Of a stretch of 64,000 nucleotides of DNA, positions 51,876 to 54,735 are shown in pieces. Origin of the DNA: Sphaerotilus mobilis (lineage in GTDB: Bacteria; Pseudomonadota; Gammaproteobacteria; Burkholderiales; Burkholderiaceae_C); the NCBI RefSeq assembly GCF_004216565.1, contig NZ_SGWV01000011.1:1-64000 (forward strand). The letters run 5' to 3'. Numbering within the stretch: the stretch's first letter is position 1; each line of letters opens with the position of its first letter. Under the pieces are notes generated by a model. The model made no database searches. It saw only the letters and a list, made by a program, of their open reading frames with translations, and had not been told where the DNA came from. The position numbers were made by a program, and so were the translations under genes.

Positions 51876-53339
51876 ATGATCTCCCGCGAACCCACCCTCG
51901 AACGCCTCGTCATCGCCCGCCAGCTGCTGCTCGAGCCTTATGGCCTGAGTGATGCGCACCTCAGCCGGGCGCTCAACACGATCGCGGCGCACAAGGTCGA
52001 CGATGCCGACCTCTACTTCCAGTACACCCGCAGCGAGGGCTGGAGTCTGGAGGAGGGCATCGTCAAGAGCGGCAGCTTCAGCATCGACCAGGGTGTGGGC
52101 GTGCGGGCGGTGGCGGGCGAGAAGACCGCCTTCGCCTACTCGGACGACATCTCCGAAGCCGCGCTGTTGGATGCCGCGCGCACGGTGCGCAGCATCGCGG
52201 CGGCCGGGCAGAGCAGGCGCGTCAAGGTCGACACGCCGCAGCAGGTCGCGGCCAGCCGCAGCCTCTACGCAGGCATGGACCCGATCGCGACGCTGGACAG
52301 CGCCGCCAAGGTTGCGCTGCTCGAACGGGTCGAGCGCATGGCGCGCGCCAAGGACCCGCGTGTGGTGCAGGTCATGGCCGGCCTGGCCGGTGAATACGAC
52401 GTCGTGCTGATCGCCCGCGCCGACGGCACGCTGGCGGCTGATGTGCGCCCGCTGGTGCGGCTGTCGGTCACGGTGATCGCCGAGCAGAACGGTCGGCGCG
52501 AAATCGGCTCGGCCGGTGGTGGTGGCCGCTTCGGCATGGGCCACTTCCAGGACGACGTCATCACCCGCTACGTCGACCAGGCCGTGCAGGCGGCGCTGAC
52601 CAACCTCGACAGCCAGGCCGCGCCGGCTGGCGAGATGACCGTCGTGCTGGGCTCGGGCTGGCCCGGCATCCTGCTGCACGAGGCCGTTGGCCACGGGCTG
52701 GAAGGCGACTTCAACCGCAAGGGTTCGAGCACCTTCGCCGGCCGCATCGGCCAGCGCGTGGCGGCCAAGGGCGTGACCGTGCTCGATGACGGCACGCTGG
52801 CCGACCGGCGCGGCTCGCTCAACATCGACGACGAGGGCCATGCCTCGCAGCGCAACGTGCTGATCGAGGACGGCATCCTCAAGGGCTACATCCAGGACGC
52901 CACCAATGCCCGTCTGATGAAGGTCGCTCCGACCGGCAACGGCCGCCGCGAGAGCTACGCCCACGTGCCGATGCCGCGCATGACCAACACCTACATGCTG
53001 CCGGGTGACAAGACGCCCGAGGAGATCATCGCCAGCATCGATCGCGGCCTGTACGCGAGCAACTTCGGCGGCGGCCAGGTCGACATCACCAGCGGCAAGT
53101 TCGTGTTCTCGGCGAGCGAAGCCTGGTGGGTCGAGAAGGGCAAGCTGCTCTACCCGGTCAAGGGCGCGACGCTGATCGGCAATGGCCCGGACGCTATGAA
53201 CCGCGTCTCGATGATCGGCAACGACATGGCGCTGGACCCTGGCGTGGGCACCTGCGGCAAGGAAGGCCAGAGCGTGCCGGTGGGCGTTGGCCAGCCGACC
53301 CTGCGCATCGACGGCATCACCGTGGGCGGCACCGGCTGA
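51876..53339 (+). CDS. tldD: Metalloprotease TldD
   Basis: A 487-residue cytosolic zinc protease subunit that acts with TldE (PmbA) on small peptides and antitoxins such as CcdA; tldE is not seen here. The zinc motif HEAVGH with downstream Glu is at about residues 268-273, in the LLHEAVGHGLEGDFNRKGSS block. The family-typical opening DADLYFQYTRSEGWSLEEG fits. The start at 51876 gives normal length (about 480-490 residues). Confidence 0.95.
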   Translation: MISREPTLERLVIARQLLLEPYGLSDAHLSRALNTIAAHKVDDADLYFQYTRSEGWSLEEGIVKSGSFSIDQGVGVRAVAGEKTAFAYSDDISEAALLDAARTVRSIAAAGQSRRVKVDTPQQVAASRSLYAGMDPIATLDSAAKVALLERVERMARAKDPRVVQVMAGLAGEYDVVLIARADGTLAADVRPLVRLSVTVIAEQNGRREIGSAGGGGRFGMGHFQDDVITRYVDQAVQAALTNLDSQAAPAGEMTVVLGSGWPGILLHEAVGHGLEGDFNRKGSSTFAGRIGQRVAAKGVTVLDDGTLADRRGSLNIDDEGHASQRNVLIEDGILKGYIQDATNARLMKVAPTGNGRRESYAHVPMPRMTNTYMLPGDKTPEEIIASIDRGLYASNFGGGQVDITSGKFVFSASEAWWVEKGKLLYPVKGATLIGNGPDAMNRVSMIGNDMALDPGVGTCGKEGQSVPVGVGQPTLRIDGITVGGTG

Positions 53340-53388
53340 CGCGCGCTCCTGCGGAAAGCACGTAGGCCAGGCGTCAGGGGCCGCGTGC

Positions 53389-53394
53389 TAAAGT
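53389..53394 (+). promoter_or_regulatory. Putative -10 element of the aroG leader
   Basis: TAAAGT lies 7 bases before the leader-peptide ATG, so a transcript would start at or near that ATG. No clear -35 is visible. A box this close mirrors that of tldD. Confidence 0.3.
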
Positions 53395-53401
53395 CATTGG
53401 C

Positions 53402-53470
53402 ATGTCTCGGCACTCGTTTTTCTTTGCGACCTTTTGGTTCTCACCCCGCACCGGCGGAGGAGAGGCCTGA
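53402..53470 (+). CDS. Phenylalanine-rich leader peptide of the aroG attenuator
   Basis: A 22-codon open frame that encodes Phe at codons 6, 7, 8, 11 and 13 and Trp at codon 12, then Ser-Pro-Arg-Thr-Gly-Gly-Gly-Glu-Ala and TGA. Such a run of codons for the end-product amino acid is the signature of attenuator leaders (compare pheL and trpL). A terminator hairpin follows 33 bases after its stop and the DAHP synthase gene lies beyond. Low charged tRNA-Phe should stall ribosomes at codons 6-13 and favour readthrough. Confidence 0.75.
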   Translation: MSRHSFFFATFWFSPRTGGGEA

Positions 53471-53533
53471 ACGCACGCGCAAAGCAGCGACAGACCGATC
53501 AAGAACCGCCGGATGCTCCGGCGGTTTTTTTTT
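53451..53533 (+). promoter_or_regulatory. Transcription attenuator with antiterminator and terminator arms
   Basis: The terminator arms AACCGCCGGA (53504-53513) and TCCGGCGGTT (53517-53526) form a perfect 10-base stem with a 3-base loop and a run of nine T. CCGGCGG at 53451-53457 repeats the right arm exactly and can instead pair with the left arm (53506-53512) as an antiterminator. This segment is within the end of the leader peptide coding region, so ribosomes that finish the peptide cover it and let the terminator form. Confidence 0.8.
53504..53533 (+). terminator. Rho-independent terminator of the attenuator
   Basis: A 10-base perfect stem (53504-53513 with 53517-53526), loop TGC, and T25-T33 tail. 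It stands 84 bases before the aroG start and would end transcription before the gene. Confidence 0.9.
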
Positions 53534-53616
53534 GCCCGTTTGACTTCTCTCTTTCCTTCCTCTGCCCTTCCCCTGCCCCTTCCCATTACCCCTTTCCGTC
53601 ATCACAGGACCCGACC

Positions 53617-54735
53617 ATGACCGCTCCGCACGACAACGCCGCCCATCGCTGGCAGGCCCCGATCGACAAGACCTCGCAGACCGATGACGAAAGGATTGTT
53701 GACGTGACCCCGCTGCCGCCGCCCGAGCACCTGATCCGCTTCTTCCCGATCCGCGGCACCGCCGTGGAAAGCCTGGTCTGCGGCACGCGCCAGAAGATCC
53801 GCGACATCCTGCATGGCCGTGACGACCGACTGCTCGTGGTGATCGGACCTTGCTCGATCCATGACCCGGTTGCCGCACTCGACTACGCCCGCCGCTTGCT
53901 GCCGTTGCGCGAGAAGTTCGCCGACACGCTCGAGATCGTCATGCGCGTCTACTTCGAGAAGCCGCGCACCACGGTGGGCTGGAAGGGCCTGATCAACGAC
54001 CCCTACCTGGACGGCAGCTTCCGCATCGACGAGGGCCTGCGCATCGCGCGCCAGTTGCTGGTCGACATCAACCGCCTGGGCATGCCTGCCGGCAGCGAGT
54101 TCCTCGACACCATCAGCCCGCAGTACATCGGCGACCTGATCAGCTGGGGCGCCATCGGCGCACGCACCACCGAAAGCCAGGTGCACCGCGAACTGGCCTC
54201 GGGCCTGTCGGCACCGATCGGCTTCAAGAATGGCACCGACGGCAACATCAAGATCGCCACCGACGCGATCCAGGCCGCAGCCCGTCCGCACCACTTCCTG
54301 TCGGTGCACAAGAACGGTCAGGTCTCGATCGTCGAAACCCGCGGCAACGCCGACTGCCACGTCATCCTGCGCGGCGGCAAGGCGCCCAACTATGACGCGT
54401 CCCATGTCGCTGCGGCCTGTGCCGACCTGGGCGCGGCCAAGCTCGAACAGCGCCTGATGGTCGACTGCAGCCATGCCAACAGCAGCAAGCAGCACCAGCG
54501 CCAGATCGACGTCGCGCAAGACATCGCCGCGCAGATGGCCGCCGGCAGCCGCTCCATCTTCGGCGTGATGGTTGAAAGCCACCTGGTCGGCGGCGCGCAG
54601 AAGTTCAACCCGGGACAGGACAGCCCGGCGGCGCTGGCCTATGGCCAGAGCATCACCGACGCCTGCATCGGCTGGGACGATTCGGCCGCCGTGCTGCAGA
54701 CCTTGTCCGACGCGGTGAAGGCGCAGCGCGCTTGA
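53617..54735 (+). CDS. aroG: 3-deoxy-7-phosphoheptulonate (DAHP) synthase, type I
   Basis: A 372-residue enzyme that condenses phosphoenolpyruvate and erythrose-4-phosphate, the first step of aromatic amino acid biosynthesis. Metal- and substrate-binding motifs are present: VVIGPCSIHDP (about residue 70), KPRTTVGWKGLINDP, GTDGN, and DCSHANSSK near residue 285. It resembles the AroF/G/H family. The ATG at 53617 is chosen because the in-frame extension upstream runs through the attenuator terminator. The leader suggests control by phenylalanine. Confidence 0.94.
   Translation: MTAPHDNAAHRWQAPIDKTSQTDDERIVDVTPLPPPEHLIRFFPIRGTAVESLVCGTRQKIRDILHGRDDRLLVVIGPCSIHDPVAALDYARRLLPLREKFADTLEIVMRVYFEKPRTTVGWKGLINDPYLDGSFRIDEGLRIARQLLVDINRLGMPAGSEFLDTISPQYIGDLISWGAIGARTTESQVHRELASGLSAPIGFKNGTDGNIKIATDAIQAAARPHHFLSVHKNGQVSIVETRGNADCHVILRGGKAPNYDASHVAAACADLGAAKLEQRLMVDCSHANSSKQHQRQIDVAQDIAAQMAAGSRSIFGVMVESHLVGGAQKFNPGQDSPAALAYGQSITDACIGWDDSAAVLQTLSDAVKAQRA

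Follow-up and report, generated by a model that had tools for sequence, protein, structure and literature searches.

Aromatic amino acid synthesis begins with DAHP synthase, which determines how much flux reaches Phe, Tyr and Trp. In E. coli, the repressors TyrR and TrpR govern transcription of this enzyme. According to a survey of these regulators (PMC5343134), the TyrR and TrpR regulons are found in gammaproteobacterial lineages. Transcription attenuation before a DAHP synthase gene has been described in C. glutamicum, where the aroR leader of aroF is a Phe-Tyr-Phe leader attenuator enhanced by Phe limitation (PMC4046766, PMC11802643). Table 7 of a 2005 paper (PMC1173090), drawn from Merino's website, has entries for Vibrio parahaemolyticus and V. 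vulnificus in which an operon of DAHP synthase and tyrA is preceded by a putative attenuator, and the only betaproteobacterial row in the part of that table considered here is the gyrA-serC-aroQ-pheA-tyrA supraoperon of Bordetella parapertussis; an earlier prediction for a betaproteobacterial DAHP synthase on Merino's website is possible. In the open full texts searched, we came across no description of an attenuator that precedes DAHP synthase in Betaproteobacteria. A phrase search of open full texts returned the C. glutamicum paper PMC4046766 as its sole match, and aroG, aroF and DAHP do not occur in the main text of Naville and Gautheret 2010 (PMC2965389). This literature agrees with an earlier sequence-only reading of the locus described below, which knew of no attenuator for an aroG-type gene in Burkholderiales, while precedents are to be found in C. 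glutamicum and, as predictions, in Vibrio.

In this study, a 64,000-nucleotide stretch of DNA (the window) was analysed, and all features given here lie on its + strand. A class I DAHP synthase gene of the AroF/G/H family (53617-54735), putatively the regulated gene, was recognized by TIGR00034 with 541.9 bits (cut-off 173.2) and scored just below the cut-off of the AroG model NF006723 (554.9 bits, cut-off 568); the gene upstream is tldD (51876-53339). Between them lies a leader ORF of 22 codons (MSRHSFFFATFWFSPRTGGGEA, 53402-53470, ATG at 53402-53404 and stop TGA at 53468-53470), whose codons 6-13 (FFFATFWF, 53417-53440) comprise five Phe and one Trp in eight, just as had been read directly from the sequence before; the leader has no Tyr. 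An intrinsic terminator, apparent both from the sequence and from folding, follows at 53501-53533 as AAGAACCGCCGGA-TGC-TCCGGCGGTTTTT with nine T; its hairpin (53501-53529) has a TGC loop and ten perfect pairs, or a 13-pair stem counting one G-U, and its T tract occupies 53525-53533, which confirms the perfect 10-base terminator of the earlier reading. Within the leader ORF, the segment CCGGCGG (53451-53457) is fully complementary to CCGCCGG (53506-53512) in the left terminator arm, a shared segment that may have as its partner either this antiterminator 5' arm or the right arm of the terminator. The 141 bases 53400-53540 fold better than 200/200 shuffles (z -3.0).

Leader, terminator and shared-arm antiterminator are among the features of a trp/phe-type attenuator, and all three are present here as predicted from sequence. 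We therefore regard it as highly likely that the element is a ribosome-mediated transcription attenuator of this type, which senses aromatic aminoacyl-tRNA and controls DAHP synthase; because the leader and a switchable terminator are conserved before DAHP synthase, the element very probably turns on this gene when aromatic amino acids are short. Transcription would start at or beside the leader AUG. With an ample supply of charged tRNAs for Phe, for Trp and, in most relatives, also for Tyr, the ribosome would reach the stop codon and cover CCGGCGG, and the left arm (53501-53513) would then pair with the right arm, resulting in termination. When they are scarce, we infer that the ribosome would stall in FFFATFWF and cover TTCTC, so that the 1:2 hairpin would be blocked and CCGGCGG, being free, would pair with the left arm during its synthesis, with read-through into DAHP synthase as the expected outcome. 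The choice between terminator and antiterminator would be kinetic, as in trp.

Conservation was scored by a rule, namely an ORF of 8-60 codons with at least five aromatic codons in eight, followed within 60 bases by a hairpin and a T tract. Among 120 genomes of the same family searched, 119 had a DAHP synthase match (G048 had none), and 116 upstream regions were taken after weak or partial matches in G061, G067 and G102 were left out. The rule, and with it the aromatic run, was satisfied by 115 of 116 orthologues and by 0/1160 dinucleotide shuffles of their upstream regions, although kinship of the genomes inflates this and every other shuffle and permutation test given here. L112 is the sole orthologue that fails, with a leader recognisable by eye and four aromatic codons in eight, and a hairpin with T tract is present after each of the 115 family leaders scored. 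The attenuator that had been suggested before DAHP synthase is thus supported by the comparison with relatives, which have kept leader, terminator and antiterminator. Among named loci, which partly overlap the other genome sets and, being the best 80 of 586 matches, are uninformative on frequency, the rule was satisfied by 65 of 80 (0/790 shuffles); of the 15 misses, L261 and L277 have a terminator and a leader with four aromatic codons, L299 has just 49 bases of upstream sequence, and L326 is described below with other single loci. None of 15 paralogues satisfied it (0/150 shuffles). Another class I DAHP synthase (L033, G000:C3:159004-160086), 64% identical to that of the window, is encoded elsewhere in the genome from which the window comes, and leader and terminator are absent before this gene and before 14 paralogues from relatives.

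The hairpin might alternatively be merely the 3' terminator of tldD, with a short ORF arising by chance, as 24 of the 30 family loci, including the window, have a same-strand tldD ahead of the element. However, the element is kept without a same-strand tldD in 42 of 124 loci (1500-2000 bases searched; sets overlap), an upstream tldD being missing at 6/30 family, 21/29 other and 15/65 leader-bearing named loci. A conserved -10 box directly before the leader, the conserved leader frame and the failure of every one of the 1160 shuffles point in the same direction. We rejected this explanation because the element is retained where tldD was not found upstream, and consider it extremely improbable.

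Paired segments of the putative attenuator change together across genomes. The antiterminator pairing is complete (7/7) in 78 of the 115 family members, 6/7 in 27 and 5/7 in 10. Eight members have the left arm CCGTCGG, and the facing leader base is A in six of these eight and in 0/107 others; since the right arm retains a G-U pair in the CCGTCGG members, the leader A tracks the antiterminator pairing, not that of the terminator. Both members with the left arm CCGCTGG (L100 and L119) likewise have the facing leader A, while L035 and L083 provide a counter-example, with a leader A opposite a left-arm C resulting in a mismatch. Outside the family, the left arm CCGCCAG faces a leader T in 7/11 cases, versus 0/11 for left arms with G at that position (22 rows, the last two rows of the set excluded). 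In a 57-row alignment, six antiterminator cells had changes on both sides versus 1.1 in shuffles (1/500), a covariation score of 0.095 was reached by 3/500 shuffles, and 89.5% of cells were paired versus at most 73.7% in slid versions. The slid version at +3 also has five double-change cells, and the number of pairs with double changes (2 vs 1.0 in shuffles, 134/500) was not above shuffles. When partners of leader tail and left arm were permuted over 115 rows, the mean energy was -16.78 kcal/mol for own and -15.88 kcal/mol for permuted partners, and pairing was weaker in 200/200 permutations. The pairing of CCGGCGG with the left terminator arm, which the sequence-only reading had put forward as an antiterminator, is hence fully complementary in the window and covaries across genomes.

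In 100 of 115 leaders, 12-16 bases separate the start of the last Trp codon from the antiterminator segment. This spacing is close to the reach of a stalled ribosome, whose footprint extends some 12 bases past the first A-site base, so the segment would stay free during a stall. Folding of the window sequence with the ribosome edge at codons 13, 12 and 11 and the right arm still unmade yielded the antiterminator (-26.9, -29.7 and -30.0 kcal/mol, respectively), and with the ribosome at the stop codon the terminator alone was left. As soon as the right arm has been added, the window fold prefers the terminator even with the ribosome at codon 13.

A second candidate pairing, between TTCTC (53438-53442) and GAGAG (53460-53464), matches the trp 1:2 (protector) hairpin in position. 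RNAalifold on 57 sequences found this core unprompted, with three of its five pairs predicted; 94% of its cells are paired and a double change occurs at 3/5 pairs, slid controls being equal on double changes. Together with the terminator, the 1:2 hairpin has four pairs with double changes versus 0.6 in shuffles (1/500). Because slid versions reach similar double-change counts (four pairs in four cells for the structure itself, four pairs in four cells at +3, three pairs in six cells at -2), the share of paired cells, 93.2% versus at most 63.3% in slid versions, is the stronger sign. The hairpin encloses CCGGCGG, which it could hide. Because the last Phe-Ser codons form part of its 5' arm, stalling of a ribosome in FWF would prevent the hairpin from forming. 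While the 1:2 hairpin shows up in the full-length window fold, a ribosome-free window transcript that ends before the right arm adopts the antiterminator (-35.6) and lacks the 1:2 hairpin, which is therefore not favoured at that length in the window. The minimum free energy (MFE) fold of the window and a permutation test suggested in addition a longer outer stem, in which the aromatic codons would pair with the spacer that follows the stop, with CTTTGCG (53422-53428) inside the Phe codons and CGCAAAG (53478-53484) past the stop codon as possible arms; own partners gave -9.04 and permuted partners -7.90 kcal/mol (0/200, 115 rows).

The likely start of transcription is indicated by an extended -10 promoter element, TGCTAAAGT (53386-53394), recognized by family comparison. 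Of 115 family members, 106 have a TANNNT with its first base 12-15 bases ahead of the leader ATG (consensus TGTGCTACATT, the box lying 6-9 bases from the ATG), versus 1, 2 and 3 of 115 at three upstream control positions; a generic sigma-70 promoter scan gave no site, and the -10 box is known from comparison. A Shine-Dalgarno sequence is absent before the window leader, and an SD-like 4-mer occurs in just 2/115 family leaders. Among 40 leaders scored outside the family, 15 have TANNNT at the same distances and one an SD-like 4-mer, so the -10 box is clear within the family and less clear beyond it. From the position of the -10 box and the near-absence of a Shine-Dalgarno sequence, transcription probably begins at the AUG, and the leader mRNA is probably leaderless, with its start at or within about 2 bases of the ATG. 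Such an arrangement is described for rnTrpL of Sinorhizobium meliloti, a leaderless sORF starting with AUG (PMC10117765), and several leaders of Streptomyces lividans are likewise leaderless (PMC8079986). By analogy with rnTrpL, the terminated RNA of about 130 bases or its peptide might act in trans.

Averaged over the best nine codons of the 115 family leaders, there are 4.29 Phe, 1.50 Tyr and 0.94 Trp codons; Tyr codons occur in 111/115 and Trp codons in 108/115 of these leaders, while outside the family Tyr was found in 41/41 and Trp in 31/41 leaders scored, and in 12 leaders from another class Tyr codons (30) outnumber Phe codons (24). Since the leaders of relatives encode Phe, Tyr and usually Trp, the sensor is probably a mixed aromatic one. 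The "phenylalanine attenuator" of the sequence-only reading is thus supported as to the attenuator and too narrow as to Phe. It may be argued that Phe-tRNA alone matters and that the Tyr and Trp codons are incidental, given that Phe is the commonest residue in family leaders and that the window leader is without Tyr; the C. glutamicum aroF leader, with its Phe-Tyr-Phe, is reported to answer to Phe and not to Tyr availability (PMC11802643, citing Neshat 2014), a precedent that warns that not every leader codon need matter. However, the occurrence of Tyr and Trp in nearly all family leaders, their recurrence outside the family and the leaders of the other class that are richer in Tyr than in Phe speak against this, and we consider sensing of Phe alone unlikely, if far from negligible.

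In the best 9-codon segments, in-frame TTY codons number 493 versus 4 TTR, compared with 233:84 and 135:187 in the other frames, and while these segments were picked for aromatic codons, the difference argues that the protein reading is under selection. We also observed that the leaders favour TTT for Phe (314 TTT, 179 TTC), whereas the DAHP synthase gene of the window has 0 TTT and 10 TTC; this preference may make the ribosome slower or have a role in the outer stem.

Nascent peptides can themselves stall ribosomes, as in TnaC and SecM, and a stall caused by the aromatic peptide and not by uncharged tRNA would agree with a peptide that is well conserved in the family (about FYFAYFWFS). Against this, the order and spacing of aromatic residues vary by lineage (FYFYFFWHL, SFYFWYYFP, SFWYFSY), and in L006, L009, L115 and L117 the frame shifts after the aromatic run with CCGGCGG and GAGAG retained, so the post-aromatic part seems to be constrained as RNA and not as protein. 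A stall due to the peptide is accordingly very improbable, and stalling at codons whose charged tRNAs are short would be the preferred explanation.

A model built from 57 family sequences (R1) had matches in 57 of 200 genomes of the order at E 0.01, and DAHP synthase follows the element at every one of its best 30 loci, of which 24 are outside the family; two weaker matches (L237 and L238) were dismissed as noise. A second model (R2, 36 sequences) matched 12 of 276 class genomes and 58 of 299 phylum genomes, the samples overlapping. Of its nine non-family matches in the class sample, four are before DAHP synthase and five are noise, and among 20 places (18 R2, two weak R1) 14 are before DAHP synthase, two before pheA-like genes, one before a pheS-like gene, and three are noise; the weak matches read as noise (L208-L212, L233, L237 and L238) are not before DAHP synthase. 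The DAHP synthase cases include the families f60 and f65 of the same class and f231, f234, f227 and f238 of another class, the promoter style of which suggests Alphaproteobacteria. In f207 genomes, R2 also matched separate Phe leaders such as MKLFPFFFAFFFTFP (L228; L230) before what we take to be a pheA-like gene, and the leader of L231 before a gene that is presumably pheS-like.

Among named loci, the element occurs in Acidovorax, Variovorax, Polaromonas, Rhizobacter, Hydrogenophaga, Burkholderia, Caballeronia, Paraburkholderia, Trinickia and Massilia, as well as in Comamonas kerstersii, and is absent at two Cupriavidus loci and at 3/4 Polynucleobacter loci. The upstream region of Cupriavidus sp. 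EM10 has neither a short Phe-rich ORF nor a terminator, and in a Neisseria gonorrhoeae record a short Phe-rich ORF lies upstream with no terminator found after it. Within the order, 0/40 DAHP synthase genes without an R1 match in front satisfied the rule (0/400 shuffles); these genes come from a part of 77 genomes with a match, and four of their genomes (G150, G162, G171 and G215) have weak R1 matches elsewhere. On this ground we rejected an occurrence in all Burkholderiales. From these sequence comparisons, the putative attenuator belongs to many Burkholderiales and some other Proteobacteria, and is special neither to this genome nor to Burkholderiales.

Several single loci deserve mention. 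In small f31 genomes (L164/L239 and L165/L240; G149 and G192) and at the Polynucleobacter loci L285, L288 and L289, DAHP synthases 74-77% identical to that of the window stand without leader and terminator, which have probably been lost there. At L326 (Candidatus Burkholderia humilis) the terminator is retained and the aromatic ORF continues past the usual stop through the hairpin, possibly a decaying attenuator. Three metagenome-assembled genomes (MAGs) labelled Planctomycetota, Verrucomicrobiia and Gemmataceae (L313, L318 and L320) carry DAHP synthases 67-73% identical to that of the window and without leader, either by contamination or by transfer. In f22 (L155 and L156; G260 and G140), two tandem DAHP synthase genes stand behind the leader, at 2637489-2638529 and 2636369-2637424 in G140, the second gene of L155 being cut by the locus end, and one attenuator may therefore govern both.

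In a quick tree of 67 DAHP synthases (46 rows with and 21 without leader), the label changes seven times versus 18.1 in shuffles, with at least three changes forced by well supported branches and 22 of 64 inner branches weak, and the leader therefore follows the gene lineage, apart from occasional loss or gain. One group in the tree unites genomes from two classes (SH-aLRT 97), a hint that gene and leader were transferred jointly. We are evenly divided on whether all these elements form one widespread class, leaderless, outside Rfam 15 as scanned, reading the charging of tRNA-Phe, tRNA-Tyr and tRNA-Trp together where the shikimate pathway begins, present in parts of two or more classes of the phylum, and inherited or transferred with DAHP synthase lineages.

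A conserved attenuator of this kind would answer how Betaproteobacteria tune the DAHP synthase step, by a simple switch. It would also fill a gap in Rfam, account for a short ORF that many genomes carry without annotation, and supply a compact means of sensing aromatic starvation. At positions 53300-53700, no Rfam 15 family reached its cut-off, the best being sroD with 22.9 of 50 bits, and membership in Phe_leader (RF01859) was rejected at 19.5 bits (E 0.78) against a gathering cut-off of 55. The pheL/pheA and pheM/pheST attenuators of that family likewise have a Phe-rich leader peptide, alternative hairpins and an intrinsic terminator; the element described here differs in that it would control DAHP synthase, is probably leaderless and in most relatives mixes Phe with Tyr and Trp codons. 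The trpL/rnTrpL attenuator RNA of S. meliloti has the kind of leaderless sORF, starting with AUG, that is predicted here (PMC10117765), and differs as a Trp attenuator before trpE. The aroR/aroF system of C. glutamicum, the nearest described precedent, is, as far as its description allows comparison, also an attenuator with an aromatic leader before DAHP synthase, but belongs to another phylum, and the leaders found here usually add Trp and a CCGGCGG-type arm. The Vibrio predictions, compared by their table entry, also place an attenuator, by prediction, ahead of a proteobacterial gene for DAHP synthase, in their case the Tyr-inhibited enzyme, and differ in concerning an operon with tyrA and in being computer predictions. 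As judged from sequence, the mechanism is the classical one, and the element is well supported by comparison.

The case would further be an example of attenuation acting on the step that all branches of a pathway share, with a leader carrying codons for several end products. The ilvL leader of ilvGMEDA likewise combines codons for more than one product of a branched pathway, and differs in serving branched-chain and not aromatic amino acids. If the reading of three tRNAs is true, the element described here would be a multivalent counterpart of ilvL.
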